From assembly GCA_022340665.1 (NCBI GenBank), contig JAJDNM010000106.1:1-60200 (forward strand): a stretch of 60,200 nt of DNA. Direction: 5' to 3'. Each line of letters begins with the position of its first letter. The first letter of the stretch is position 1. The notes under the pieces are model-generated. The model saw nothing but the letters and a program-made list of their open reading frames with translations. It was not told the origin of the DNA and did not search any database. This DNA comes from Acidobacteriota bacterium. GTDB lineage: Bacteria; Acidobacteriota; Thermoanaerobaculia; Thermoanaerobaculales; Sulfomarinibacteraceae. This document shows positions 18,554 to 48,994 of the stretch, piece after piece. The position numbers and the translations under genes are program-made.

Positions 18554-18578
18554 CGCTGTGATGGTAGCGCACAACGAT

Positions 18579-18680
18579 GGAATTCGGATTTCGGAATTCC
18601 CACCCACCCTCCCGTCCTTCGGATCGGTTCCTCAGGTGATTGGGCAGCATTCCTAATTCCTCATTCCTACTTCCTCATTC
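18579..18680. repeat. Heptad element 1 (mirror-image arms, G-quadruplex-like spacer)
   Basis: Left arm: GGAATTC, GGATTTC, GGAATTC (18579-18599). Right arm: ATTCCTA, ATTCCTC, ATTCCTA, CTTCCTC (18649-18676), which is the same GGAAT-type heptad in the opposite orientation. The spacer begins with CCCACCCACCCTCCC (18599-18613), four G3 runs with 1-base loops on the minus strand. The right arm ends 6 bp from the stop codon of the gene at 18687. Confidence 0.85.
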
Positions 18681-18686
18681 GAGAGG

Positions 18687-19466
18687 TTATCCGCCGCAGG
18701 GGATGACGTGTGCGCCGGGCCAGGCGTCTGTCACCCGGTTACGGGTCCGCTCGGCCATCGACTTCGAGTCGAACGGCCCGATTCGGACGCGCCAAAGCTT
18801 GTCGATACCGTCGAGTACCAATGCTTTCTCACCCGCCCGATCGAGCTCCGCCTCCGCTCGTCGCGCGTTGTCGGCATCGCTGAACGCGCCCACCTGCACC
18901 CAAAAGCACGGTGAGTCGTTTGCCGGCTCGTTTTCCCGTGCCGGCGGGTCCGCGCGTCCGATCAGCCTGATCTCGACCGGGGCCACTCCGTCGATGTCGA
19001 GACCGATCGTCTTCGCAGCGGCGAAGGAAAGATCGATGATGCGTCCCTCGATGAAGGGTCCGCGATCGTTGATGCGGACCTCCACAGCTGCGCCGTTGTC
19101 GCGACGTGTCACTCGCACCAACGAGCCGAACTCCAGCGTCCGGTGGGCGGCCGTCAGCCGATGCATGTCGTAGGTCTCGCCGGACGCTGAACGACGACCG
19201 TGGTAGGGCTCGCCATACCAGGATGCGAGGCCTCTTTCGACCCAGTCCGTCTCCGGTGGCGACGCTGGAGCCGGTATCGGAGTCGGCGGCGGCGGTACAG
19301 GTCTCACCTGCAGTTGCTGGACTCCGCGGTGTGCGCAACCAACGGAGAGCACCAAACAGGCGAACAGGAAGATCGCAGGAGTTATGAGTTTTGAGTTTTG
19401 AGTCTTGAGTTCCCGACCACCCCCCCGGTTCTCTTGGGGGTGGATGGGGGACAACTCATAACTCAT
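18687..19466 (-). CDS. rlpA: RlpA-like lipoprotein with SPOR domain
   Basis: This is a septal-ring-type lytic transglycosylase/lipoprotein. After a lipobox (LSVGC, Cys at 44 in this reading) come a Pro-rich linker, a double-psi beta-barrel domain (about 75-165, GLASWYGEPYHGRRSASGETYD and INDRGPFIEGRIIDLS), and a C-terminal SPOR domain (about 185-257, PCFWVQVGAFSDADNARRAE) that binds denuded glycans at division sites. The start is odd: the only in-frame ATG lies inside a heptad repeat at 19466, so the first 30 or so residues (including ELKTQNSKL) are translated from the repeat element. No ATG/GTG/TTG sits just before the hydrophobic signal. The true start may be non-canonical or the repeat may have replaced it. 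Confidence 0.88.
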   Translation of the reverse strand: MSYELSPIHPQENRGGGRELKTQNSKLITPAIFLFACLVLSVGCAHRGVQQLQVRPVPPPPTPIPAPASPPETDWVERGLASWYGEPYHGRRSASGETYDMHRLTAAHRTLEFGSLVRVTRRDNGAAVEVRINDRGPFIEGRIIDLSFAAAKTIGLDIDGVAPVEIRLIGRADPPARENEPANDSPCFWVQVGAFSDADNARRAEAELDRAGEKALVLDGIDKLWRVRIGPFDSKSMAERTRNRVTDAWPGAHVIPCGG

Positions 19467-19487
19467 AACTCAGCACTCAAAACTAGA
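19379..19487. repeat. Heptad element 2: nested inverted repeat of GAGTTNT heptads around a GC hairpin
   Basis: Left arm of five heptads: GAGTTAT, GAGTTTT, GAGTTTT, GAGTCTT, GAGTTCC (19379-19413). Right arm AACTCAT, AACTCAT, AACTCAG, CACTCAA, AACTAGA (19453-19487) is its approximate reverse complement. The centre is a hairpin CCACCCCC / GGGGGTGG (19417-19443). The purB stop codon lies inside the right arm, and the left arm is read through by the rlpA reading frame. Confidence 0.9.
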
Positions 19488-20952: not shown

Positions 20953-21053
20953 GAGTTCTGAGTTCTCAGTTTTGAGTTTTGAGTTTTGAGTTCCCACCCA
21001 CCCTGCCGATGCTGGATGCTCGATCCGCCCACTCTCCCATCTCCCTTTCTCCC
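20953..21053. repeat. Heptad element 3 (three heptad types in series)
   Basis: GAGTTCT, GAGTTCT, CAGTTTT, GAGTTTT, GAGTTTT, GAGTTCC (20953-20994) run into CCCACCCACCC. Then come GATGCTG, GATGCTC (21008-21021) and a pyrimidine-rich run with 7-bp spacing of CTCC (about 21031-21053). It lies between the divergent purB and arginine deiminase genes. It is one of two elements that do not abut a stop codon. Confidence 0.75.
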
Positions 21054-21114
21054 CCGCCCCCCTGCTCCTCCGCGCCGCACCGGCTATGATGCCTGCGCGA
21101 GAGGAGAGAGCGGC

Positions 21115-22383: not shown

Positions 22384-22386
22384 CCC

Positions 22387-22567
22387 GAGTTTTGAGTTCT
22401 GAGTTCTGAGTTCTGAGTTTTGAGTTGCCGGCGGCCCGTGGGCGTTGTGACTCACCATTCCGTGTTCCGGGGGTGCGGGTGGGAAATCCGAAATCCGAAC
22501 TCCCAATTCCAAAATGCCGGTGGGCGGGTGGGCATTCCTAATTCCGAATTCCGAATTCCGAATTCTG
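22387..22567. repeat. Heptad element 4 (compound, between convergent arcA and lpxL)
   Basis: The left array starts 3 bp after the arcA stop: GAGTTTT, GAGTTCT x3, GAGTTTT, GAGTTGC (22387-22428). A middle array has AAATCCG x2, AACTCCC, AATTCCA, AAATGCC (22484-22518). The right array has CATTCCT, AATTCCG x3, AATTCTG (22533-22567) and encodes the last residues of LpxL. G-rich spacers GGGGGTGCGGGTGGG (22469-22483) and GGTGGGCGGGTGGG (22519-22532) precede the second and third arrays. Confidence 0.9.
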
Positions 22568-23467
22568 CAGCCGCAGCTGTTTCCACCGGTCGTGGTACCA
22601 CAACCACTGGTCCGGGTTCCCACGAATCGCTTTCTCGAGAATCCCCATGTAGCGCGCGGTCAGTGAAACATCGTCGTGCTCTGACTCGGGCAGATCATCG
22701 ACAACCACAGGCTCGTCATACCGCAAACTGTAACGCCCGGGCCCTTCACGCAGTGCAAAGACCGGCACTACAGGCGCCCCGGTCTTGAGGGCCACGCGCG
22801 CGAGGATCGAGTGGGCCCACGCAGGTCGACCGAAGAAGGGCACCTCGACGCCGCGGTCCGGCGACGCCCGTTGATCGATCAGGATGCCCACCGCGCCACC
22901 CCGTTTGAGCTCCGCCAACATCTCGCGCAGCATGTTGTGTTTCCCGAATACCCGGTTGCCGTAGAGCTTGCGCAGGCGGTCGAGTTCGACCTCGAGGAGC
23001 GGGTTGTCGAGTGGTCGGTTGACAACTGCTATCCCGGATTCGAGCAGGAGTCCGGTTACCAGCGCAGCGACCTCCCAGGAACCGATGTGGGCGGTGAGGA
23101 AGAACACGCCGCGGCCGTAGCTGAATGCCTTCTCTACGTTTTCCAGCCCCGAGATTTCGACTGCGGCCATCAGCTCGTCGGGCTGAAGCCTCTGCATCCG
23201 TATCGCGTCAAGGGCTGATCTGGCGAAGTGTCTCGTGACATCCCGCGCGAGGGCGCGGCGCGCCGCATCATCCATCTCCGGAAAGGCGAGCTGGAGGTTG
23301 AAGTCGATGATCTCCCGCCGCCTTCCGCCGAGCGCCGAGTACACGGTCCCGAGCGCGTTGCCGACCTTCGCGAGGCCAGCCGGCGACAGCATGCCGGTCA
23401 GCCCGCGGGCCGTCCGGTAAGCCGCGTACTCGACCTGGTTTCGCAACGCAGAACGGTCCTTGCTCAC
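22538..23467 (-). CDS. lpxL: LpxL/HtrB-type lipid A acyltransferase
   Basis: This is an inner-membrane acyltransferase that adds secondary acyl chains to Kdo-lipid A. The start is a GTG at 23467, overlapping the lpxK stop (GTGA), with GGAGG upstream. The 309-residue protein has the HX4E catalytic motif in LTAHIGSWEV and the family blocks GILIDQRASPDRGVEVPFFGRPA and RGNPDQWLWYHDRWK. The family normally ends soon after the DRWK motif. Here the last ten residues (LQNSEFGIRN) are encoded by a heptad array that also supplies the stop codon. It lies in a waaA-lpxK-lpxL operon. Confidence 0.93.
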   Translation of the reverse strand: MSKDRSALRNQVEYAAYRTARGLTGMLSPAGLAKVGNALGTVYSALGGRRREIIDFNLQLAFPEMDDAARRALARDVTRHFARSALDAIRMQRLQPDELMAAVEISGLENVEKAFSYGRGVFFLTAHIGSWEVAALVTGLLLESGIAVVNRPLDNPLLEVELDRLRKLYGNRVFGKHNMLREMLAELKRGGAVGILIDQRASPDRGVEVPFFGRPAWAHSILARVALKTGAPVVPVFALREGPGRYSLRYDEPVVVDDLPESEHDDVSLTARYMGILEKAIRGNPDQWLWYHDRWKQLRLQNSEFGIRN

Positions 23468-24492
23468 GCGTCCACCTCCGGCAGGAGCCGCCACAGATCG
23501 TCCCAACTGCAGCCGACCGGCTCCACGATCGGCTCGACCACCCAGACGCCGGCCTCCGACGAGAGCTTGACCGCATCCTTGGCAGTCGTGACCGGCACTG
23601 CCGACGCCGCCCTCGCCTGGCTGAGGATGTCAGCGAGGTCCTGATCGGTGTAGGCGTGGTGATCCGGAAACCAGCGTGTCGCAACGATCTCCGCACCGGC
23701 TTCGACCAAGGTCGCGGCAAAGCCTTCCGGCCGACCGAGCCCGGCAAAGGCGAGAACCCGCTGGCCGGACAGGATCGTCGGCTCTCGCCATCCTTCGGGA
23801 GGGACAAGTACGCGATTCGGACGAATGCGCGAGACGAGTATTTCGAGCCCGGGAGCGACGCGGTGAGCAACCCTCTCGATCTCCGCCACCTGGGCACGCC
23901 ACTCGGTCGACACCTTGGTGACCAGTACTGCGCCCGCCCTCGCGAGCCCGGTCAGCGGTTCCCTCAAGCGACCCAGTGGAGGCAGCCGCCCCCCACCGAA
24001 GGGATCGCCGGCGTCGACCAGGACCAGGTCGAGATCGCGTTCGAGGCGACGGTGCTGGAAGCCGTCATCGAGCACCACGACGTCGGCGCCCAAGAGCTGG
24101 GCTCGCGCCCCACCGCGGGCGCGGTCTGGGTCGACCACGATCGGCACGCCCGGCAGGCGGCGCGCCATCTCCAGAGGTTCGTCACCGACCTCGGCCGCGG
24201 TCTGTTTCGGGTCCGGTCCGACAACTACCGCCTGGGCATCGTCGTCGCGCTTATAGCCACGGGTGAGTACCGCAGGATGTCGCCCCTTGCGAACGAGGTC
24301 CCGTGCGAGGGCAATCACCGTCGGCGTCTTGCCGGTCCCACCGAAGGTGAGATTGCCTACCGAGATGACCGGCACGTCCAGCCGGGTGCGTTCGATCCAT
24401 CCCCTCCGGTAAGCGGCATTCCTCGCCGCCACCGCGCCACGGTAGAGGGGTGTCATCGGCAGCAGCAGAAACCGCCAGCTCATGCTTGTCAT
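23464..24492 (-). CDS. lpxK: Tetraacyldisaccharide 4'-kinase
   Basis: LpxK phosphorylates the 4' position of the lipid A disaccharide at the inner membrane. The 342-residue protein is of normal length. It has an N-terminal membrane-associated helix, a P-loop (GNLTFGGTGKTPTV, about 46-60), the RGYKR motif, DDGFQHRRLERDLDLVLVD with the catalytic Asp, and FAGLGRPEGF. The ATG overlaps the waaA stop (ATGA), indicating translational coupling. It confirms a lipid-A-containing outer membrane. Confidence 0.95.
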   Translation of the reverse strand: MTSMSWRFLLLPMTPLYRGAVAARNAAYRRGWIERTRLDVPVISVGNLTFGGTGKTPTVIALARDLVRKGRHPAVLTRGYKRDDDAQAVVVGPDPKQTAAEVGDEPLEMARRLPGVPIVVDPDRARGGARAQLLGADVVVLDDGFQHRRLERDLDLVLVDAGDPFGGGRLPPLGRLREPLTGLARAGAVLVTKVSTEWRAQVAEIERVAHRVAPGLEILVSRIRPNRVLVPPEGWREPTILSGQRVLAFAGLGRPEGFAATLVEAGAEIVATRWFPDHHAYTDQDLADILSQARAASAVPVTTAKDAVKLSSEAGVWVVEPIVEPVGCSWDDLWRLLPEVDA

Positions 24493-27817: not shown

Positions 27818-27910
27818 TTTTTCGAATTTTGAATTTCGAATTTCGAATTTGCCGCATGGTCAGCGTCGGACGTGGAATACCGAATTCCGAATTCCGAATT
27901 CCGAACTCTG
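27818..27910. repeat. Heptad element 5 (AATTTCG and AATTCCG arrays between prfA and prmC)
   Basis: The first array is TTTTTCG, AATTTTG, AATTTCG x2, AATTTGC (27818-27852). The second is AATACCG, AATTCCG x3, AACTCTG (27876-27910), ending 4 bp from the prfA stop codon. A 23-bp spacer separates them. The arrays would lie in the prfA-prmC transcript. Confidence 0.9.
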
Positions 27911-29385: not shown

Positions 29386-29434
29386 GAATTAGGAATTAGG
29401 AGTCAGGAAATCGGAATTCCCGTCCACCCACCCG
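29386..29434. repeat. Heptad element 6
   Basis: GAATTAG, GAATTAG, GAGTCAG, GAAATCG, GAATTCC (29386-29420) are followed by a C-rich stretch CCCGTCCACCCACCC. It lies between rpmE and citF, 73 bp from the citF stop, and has no clear second arm. It is one of two elements that do not abut a stop codon. Confidence 0.8.
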
Positions 29435-29493
29435 GCCGCCGAGTAAGATCAGAGACGAGTTGGTATTCCTGAGGCCAGATTGGCGAGTCGATA

Positions 29494-31047: not shown

Positions 31048-31104
31048 AATTCAGACTCCCGCTCTCGCTGACCCCGATCCCCCGGTTTCGGGAGTTCGGG
31101 CGGG

Positions 31105-31139
31105 AATAACGAATTCCGAATTCCGAATTCCGAATTCAT
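31105..31139. repeat. Heptad element 7
   Basis: AATAACG, AATTCCG, AATTCCG, AATTCCG, AATTCAT. The array ends 7 bp from the stop codon of the citD-citE fusion and lies between the two citrate lyase genes. G-rich sequence (GTTCGGGCGGG) precedes it. Confidence 0.88.
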
Positions 31140-31146
31140 CAATCTC

Positions 31147-32375: not shown

Positions 32376-32411
32376 CAACGTTACAACGTTGAACGTTGAA
32401 CGTTCAAACGT
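32376..32411. repeat. Heptad element 8 (GAACGTT type)
   Basis: CAACGTT, one extra A, CAACGTT, GAACGTT, GAACGTT, CAAACGT. It directly abuts the stop codon of the dehydrogenase gene at 32411. The core AACGTT is palindromic, as GAATTC is in other elements. Confidence 0.85.
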
Positions 32412-42641: not shown

Positions 42642-42704
42642 GAGCGGTAAATTTCTGGCCAGCGCTTCAGTTCGATCGAGGAACCAACTCGGGATGATCG
42701 TGGG

Positions 42705-48863: not shown

Positions 48864-48982
48864 CTGGATGCGAGATGCTGGATGCTCGATACTAGAGGCG
48901 CCGGATCAACAATCTCTCTCGTTGAATTCTCCCGGGGTGGGCGAGTGGATCGGGAATCCAGTATCAAGAATCCAGCATCAGG
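48864..48982. repeat. Heptad element 11 (mirror-image CTGGATG arms)
   Basis: Left arm: CTGGATG, CGAGATG, CTGGATG, CTCGATA, CTAGAGG (48864-48898). Right arm: AATCCAG, TATCAAG, AATCCAG, CATCAGG (48955-48982), the opposite orientation. The spacer contains CCCGGGGTGGGCGAGTGG. It ends 12 bp from the glmS stop codon. Confidence 0.85.
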
Positions 48983-48994
48983 CGGGTGGACGCA

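Follow-up and report, generated by a model that had tools for sequence, protein, structure and literature searches.

The DNA analysed here, called the window throughout, is a 60,200-nt stretch (contig C106) of an Acidobacteriota draft genome (3.95 Mb, 97% complete), probably Sulfomarinibacter-like (Thermoanaerobaculales). It carries a series of elements built from tandem arrays of 7-nt units (heptads), a kind of repeat that is scattered over several bacterial phyla and has no accepted function. The features are as follows.

18579-18599: element 1, left heptad arm (GGAATTC GGATTTC GGAATTC)
18599-18613, minus strand: element 1, inner edge GGGAGGGTGGGTGGG, C-rich on plus and G-rich on minus, a strict G-quadruplex (G4) motif
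18600-18647: element 1, spacer of 48 nt
18648-18680: element 1, right heptad arm (ATTCCTA/ATTCCTC)
19377-19484: element 2, GAGTTTT arms and a 38-nt GC core (CCCGACCACCCCC / GGGGGTGGATGGG), adjoining the stop codon of an adenylosuccinate lyase gene
20953-21007: element 3, one GAGTTTT arm only, C-rich edge CCCACCCACCCTGCC; the flanking genes are divergent
22386-22506: element 4, GAGTTCT arm, 54-nt spacer with end GGGGGTGCGGGTGGG, inverted AATCCGA arm
22519-22569: element 4b, GGTGGGCGGGTGGG edge and ATTCCGA arm
27820-27910: element 5, GAATTTC and ATTCCGA arms around a 21-nt spacer that lacks G3 runs; the stop codon of a prfA-like gene is 4 nt away
29387-29433: element 6, GGAATTA arm, C-rich edge CCCGTCCACCCACCC, and a decayed right arm at 29466-29481
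31093-31139: element 7, GGGCGGG edge and ATTCCGA arm, adjoining the stop codon of an HpcH/HpaI (citrate lyase beta-type) gene
32384-32408: element 8, AACGTTG heptads without a G-rich core, at a stop codon
34785-34887: element 9, arms of GAGTTAA type with 94% complementarity over 18 nt; the element ends at a stop codon

About 6 nt separate the right arm of element 1 from the stop codon of an RlpA-like gene (18687-19466, minus strand), and element 4 starts about 2 nt past that of an arginine deiminase-family gene; genes were called with our own codon-usage script, and individual gene-element distances carry error. Some arrays themselves provide a stop codon, as the arm of element 4b does for an acyltransferase gene (22538-23506, minus strand): over 22538-22569, the heptad array writes the last codons and the stop codon of this lipid A acyltransferase-like gene. 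At the site of element 2, an element is also present in two related genomes (G004 and G001).

Heptad arrays and G-rich edges

Within the 830 kb of the genome covered by our counts (in stretches, on contigs picked for containing the heptad pattern, so that array density is biased upward while within-contig contrasts are unbiased), period-7 tandem arrays numbered 137, of which 122 were intergenic; no other period from 4 to 13 gave more than 9. Class A heptads (units GAGTTNT, GGAATTC, GGAATTA, GAATTTC, and GATTTCG) form the majority of arrays; class B joins GATGCTG units to a conserved core of about 45 nt, and a few arrays have AACGTTG units. Class B repeats (window 48870-48985; also C90:34078-34187, C62:16243-16337, and C96 near 20198) are laid out as GATGCTG heptads, then the conserved core AACAAATCGATAAGTCGTCTCGCTGAATTGTCAAGGGG(T)GGGCGG, then inverted heptads.

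Class A arms lying within 110 nt of each other were converging in 30 pairs, diverging in none, and in the same orientation in 11. Spacers between converging arms cluster at 34 to 48 nt and are C-rich in their first part and G-rich in their last, giving an inverted, polarised composite of about 85 to 125 bp in the order heptad array, C-rich edge, loop, G-rich edge, inverted heptad array, with about 3 to 6 heptads in each arm. An arm fits its partner in the same element better than it fits the arms of other elements (0/5,000 permutations as good). For the core halves, complementarity within elements is no higher than between elements (swap/permutation test, no covariation signal), so the upper stem is generic pairing of C tracts with G tracts; a consensus structure was left aside, core interiors being too variable for confident alignment.

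A first-pass annotation of this DNA had described the minus strand of the element 1 spacer as carrying a G4 motif of a very stable type. The 15-mer at 18599-18613 was confirmed in sequence and position (GGGAGGGTGGGTGGG on the minus strand, CCCACCCACCCTCCC on the plus strand), and is the window's only G3 motif with four tracts and one-base loops; the only other strict G3 motifs (loops of 1 to 7 nt) are two overlapping ones at 21028-21062. Similar G-rich runs that had been listed at four other positions are all present there, none with four G3 tracts and short loops (0/4): the run at 20993-21007 has three G3 tracts on the minus strand, those at 22469-22483 and 22519-22532 have at best three each on the plus strand, and that at 29419-29433 reads GGGTGGGTGGACGGG on the minus strand.

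The proposed co-occurrence of G runs with heptad arrays extends to the wider sample, in which GGGNGGG was found in 54/76 class A regions versus 49/297 array-free regions (Fisher p = 2e-19). Far from being equally common where heptads are lacking, G runs are about fivefold rarer in array-free intergenic DNA (GGGNGGG/CCCNCCC density of 1.2/kb, against 5.9/kb in class A intergenic regions, over 830 kb). They also sit mainly on the inner side, CCCNCCC falling no more than 30 nt to the 3' side of the oriented array in 56/131 arms and to the 5' side in 7/131; contigs fetched after the pattern had been noticed gave 20/54 and 1/54. The suggestion of one composite element thus gains support, the G-rich run being a fixed and polarised part of an inverted-repeat element.

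Predicted hairpins and quadruplexes

Whole elements are predicted to fold into strong hairpins (mean z of -4.5 relative to shuffles; z < -2 in 26/30), and element 2 is predicted as a single long hairpin on either strand. When ViennaRNA was run with quadruplexes allowed, one entered the predicted optimum of 3/60 strands, including the minus strand of element 1, where the 15-mer is predicted to prevail even against the element's own hairpin. Taking as G4 motif four tracts of at least three G with loops of 1 to 7 nt on one strand, we counted four G3 tracts in 4/30 spacers and 11/91 G-rich edges, most edges having two or three; element 1 carries the motif, and the class as a whole does not. The earlier wording "G-quadruplex-type spacer" therefore suits the sequence of element 1 and fails as a description of the class. 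By these predictions, a unimolecular quadruplex may form in a minority of elements only, element 1 included, with G3-N1 spacing preferred.

A rival reading is that the (GGGN)2-4 edges work as DNA or RNA quadruplexes beside gene ends. The spacing G3-N1-G3 is in fivefold excess over dinucleotide shuffles of the same flanks (90 versus 18), four-tract motifs number 11 against 1.1 expected, the element 1 prediction points the same way, and G4-forming heptads near stop codons are known in Xanthomonas and Nostoc (PMC4692102). We nevertheless regard such a role as very improbable, given how few edges have four tracts and how few optima contain a quadruplex, and given the related genomes. The motif is not kept at the orthologous site of element 1, where G004 has three G3 tracts and G002 a CACAGAG palindrome without G3 runs, and the sister genus (g3, genome G006) mostly has other cores instead, so that G tracts are not conserved at orthologous sites. 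Arms in G006 also converge (11 versus 2), around spacers of mostly 29 to 43 nt, and most cores end in ATCGCA...TGCGAT in place of G runs; with arms and spacing alike and the core different, the architecture either predates the G runs or extends more widely than they do.

Position behind stop codons and turnover at kept sites

Elements adjoin stop codons: 64/113 lie within 15 nt on the stop-codon side, where uniform placement over the intergenic regions concerned would give 36 +/- 3, and 5 lie within 15 nt on the start side, versus 18. In the 10 nt next to the stop codon, elements are likewise packed more densely than uniform placement predicts. The occupied share of intergenic regions is highest between convergent genes (36%) and is 21% between divergent genes.

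An element placed directly behind a stop codon should become part of the upstream gene's transcript, as its 3' end. We tentatively favour an exchangeable 3'-end stem-loop, whose role would lie in termination and/or protection of the mRNA end. The G-rich run is the inner edge of this stem-loop, in which inverted heptad arrays flank a spacer that starts C-rich and ends G-rich; the transcript end would fold into one long hairpin topped by the GC-rich edges, and this hairpin would most likely promote termination and/or shield the mRNA end. Arrays would change through heptad slippage, and, as the turnover described below shows, other families take the place of an entire element, or of its two arms, at a given site. 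Divergent regions, which make up 19 of the 105 occupied intergenic regions, count against the favoured reading, as a 3'-end role there makes no sense. The elements were rejected as intrinsic terminators (GC stem plus T tract), since the listed terminator-like sites (14 canonical U-tract sites, versus 11 +/- 4 expected) never coincide with them. An Rfam scan of 18 kb gave one sub-threshold match, located elsewhere, and no family match to the elements.

Sites are shared between relatives. Of orthologous regions in G000 and G002, 15 were occupied in both, 31 in neither, and 15 in one only (odds ratio of 8.3, p = 3e-4; most G002 contigs were selected for heptads); pooling with G003 and G004 gave an odds ratio of 10.7 (p = 5e-6), which is inflated because those loci were fetched for holding heptads. 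Contig C40 of G002, found via adenylosuccinate lyase, gives the same shared-site pattern. The sites are kept while their sequence changes: 13/23 shared sites have no heptad in common, and heptad similarity at shared sites is barely higher than at random sites (0.24 versus 0.15; 238/5,000 permutations). Where the array is absent in one species, the region usually has another, unrelated strong hairpin, with z < -3 in 60% of cases, versus 14% where neither species has an array (p = 0.005), a contrast to which some "missing" arrays add, being heptad elements under the detection threshold. An assembly artefact was rejected, as differently named MAGs (AM3-A, GMC8, and Prado005) share the architecture in syntenic places.

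Individual loci of G002:C40 were inspected as well. L043-L044, the orthologues of window 18554-18686, 19167-19482, and 42642-42704, hold the palindromes ACCACAGAGTCACAGAG..CTCTGTGTCTCTGTGGT, GAACCGCTAAGAGCGCAAAG..CTTTGCGTTCTTTGCGGTTC, and ACCACCAAGGCACCAAG..CTTGGTGTCTTGGTGG; the first two occupy sites of heptad elements in other species, and at the third (42642-42704) the window has none. In L043, the orthologue of window 31048-31146 (element 7) holds inverted AGTGATC / AACTGAT heptads, which correspond to the TAACTGA unit of Beggiatoaceae.

A 3'-end role has a serious rival in the neutral survival of elements that lie behind stop codons. Selfish or neutral palindromic repeats, spread by transposition or template copying, would persist mainly where they harm neither coding sequence nor promoters; shared sites would be tolerated hot spots and structure a by-product. 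Random insertions that spare promoters would explain part of the position bias. The many copies, the patchy occurrence of arrays within the family, and the unrelated families at the same sites in sister species all fit, as do the class B copies, which with their conserved core of about 45 nt look like a recently dispersed family. The packing within 10 nt of stop codons above uniform placement is less easily accommodated, and no mobilising enzyme was found among the Y1/RAYT and reverse transcriptase genes looked for in the genome. The five matches to Y1 (RAYT/TIRYT) transposases showed no enrichment of arrays around them (5 arrays in 30.5 kb, versus 0.22/kb overall), and a RAYT/Y1 link was rejected, these genes lying away from the elements and RAYT-type transposases occurring also in relatives without arrays. 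Arrays made by reverse transcriptase were rejected too, with no RVT_1 match in the 97% complete genome. On balance, we consider neutral or selfish spread somewhat less likely than a 3'-end role.

A purely mutational origin would dispense with function altogether: polymerase slippage would favour 7-nt units, and template switching at hairpins would copy one arm to the other. Both arms of an element do match, and in many bacteria heptads are described as more frequent than any other long repeat unit, slippage having been proposed (Mrazek et al. 2007, as cited in PMC4679880 and PMC4692102). This account is very unlikely in our view, because it does not account for the GC-rich edges that elements share, their narrow spacer, the 30:0 convergence, the stop-codon adjacency, or the unrelated hairpins at the same sites.

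Returning to the favoured 3'-end stem-loop, the heptads described here may be viewed as the arms of a single architecture that, within a genus, stays in place and changes its sequence by exchange; the hairpin behind the stop codon may be what is selected, and the letters what is free. With hairpin position kept and letters free, sequence-based searches, G4 predictors included, see fragments only. If the slot is functional, orthologous sites with different families should give the same transcript end. A stronger version, which we think unlikely, holds that stem-loop slots are fixed at gene 3' ends and rewritten as a unit between unrelated families (several heptad families and CACAGAG-type and CGCAAAG-type palindromes); the process, so far undescribed, would either target stop codons or copy one arm from the other.

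Known heptad repeats and occurrence elsewhere

Heptad repeats as a kind are already known. The short tandemly repeated repetitive (STRR) sequences of cyanobacteria are intergenic, hairpin-capable 7-bp tandem repeats, one of them near a gene 3' end, and a role in transcript stability or termination has been suggested for them (PMC2670836). The elements described here share the tandem intergenic 7-bp units, the many copies (137 arrays), and the hairpin capacity; they differ in phylum, in their defined GC-rich (GGGN)n core, of which none is reported for STRRs in PMC2670836, and in that several heptad families have a common architecture and substitute for one another at a given site. Heptads common to both could be convergent.

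The G4-forming heptads GGGNATC and GGGGA(C/T)T of Xanthomonas and Nostoc are intergenic and near stop codons; related species have them between the same gene pairs, though their sequence varies, and inverted cases are noted (Rehm et al. 2015, PMC4692102). Heptad length, intergenic position near stop codons, kept gene pairs, and G-richness are thus held in common, but there the G tract lies inside the heptad and four units are preferred, whereas here the heptads are AT-richer and the G tracts, which have period 4, belong to the spacer. TAACTGA repeats of Beggiatoaceae, Cyanobacteria, and Bacteroidetes are mostly direct and lie just upstream of start codons (MacGregor 2015, PMC4679880); they resemble our elements as intergenic heptads of patchy phylogeny, with AACTGAT/AGTGATC heptads at the G002 orthologue of element 7, and differ from our elements, which are inverted and follow stop codons. 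REP/BIME palindromes and TIRYT-associated repeats (PMC3733652) are likewise multicopy extragenic palindromes, but the arms here are tandem heptads without a tie to Y1 transposase genes; no GTAG/CGTC tag (as in REP-type palindromes of 20 to 40 bp) was noticed in an informal look through the listed junctions. As far as the open-access literature shows, two features are new: the fixed convergent layout around a core edged by (GGGN)n, and the replacement of one family by an unrelated one where the site itself is retained.

The exact composite junction was found in 4/40 relatives, all of the same genus, and across the phylum in 1/149 sampled genomes, the window's own. A collection of 85,000 species yielded 37 stretches with the junction, mostly from three Thermoanaerobaculales MAGs; ten single matches elsewhere include similar-looking composites in Thermodesulfovibrionia and Tidjanibacter, although the query itself favoured that look. 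In G038, a distant genome of the same class, loci L148-L167 hold long direct series of GAGTTTC/GAGTTGC heptad arrays, plus arrays of period 8.

Two further repeats were observed. A dispersed repeat of about 140 bp with CGACAGCGGCGATTTGTGGCCGTAGCCGTGGGGATCG, up to 88% identical between copies (C42:6499-6732, C43:66875-67120, C132:2670-3044, and C77:16821-17080), is apparently a family apart from the heptad elements. A MITE-like interspersed inverted repeat, GGTGCCAC..GTGGCACC, has differing interiors (C62:19184-19748, C7:8439-8688, C7:5842-6182, and C132:61159-61445).
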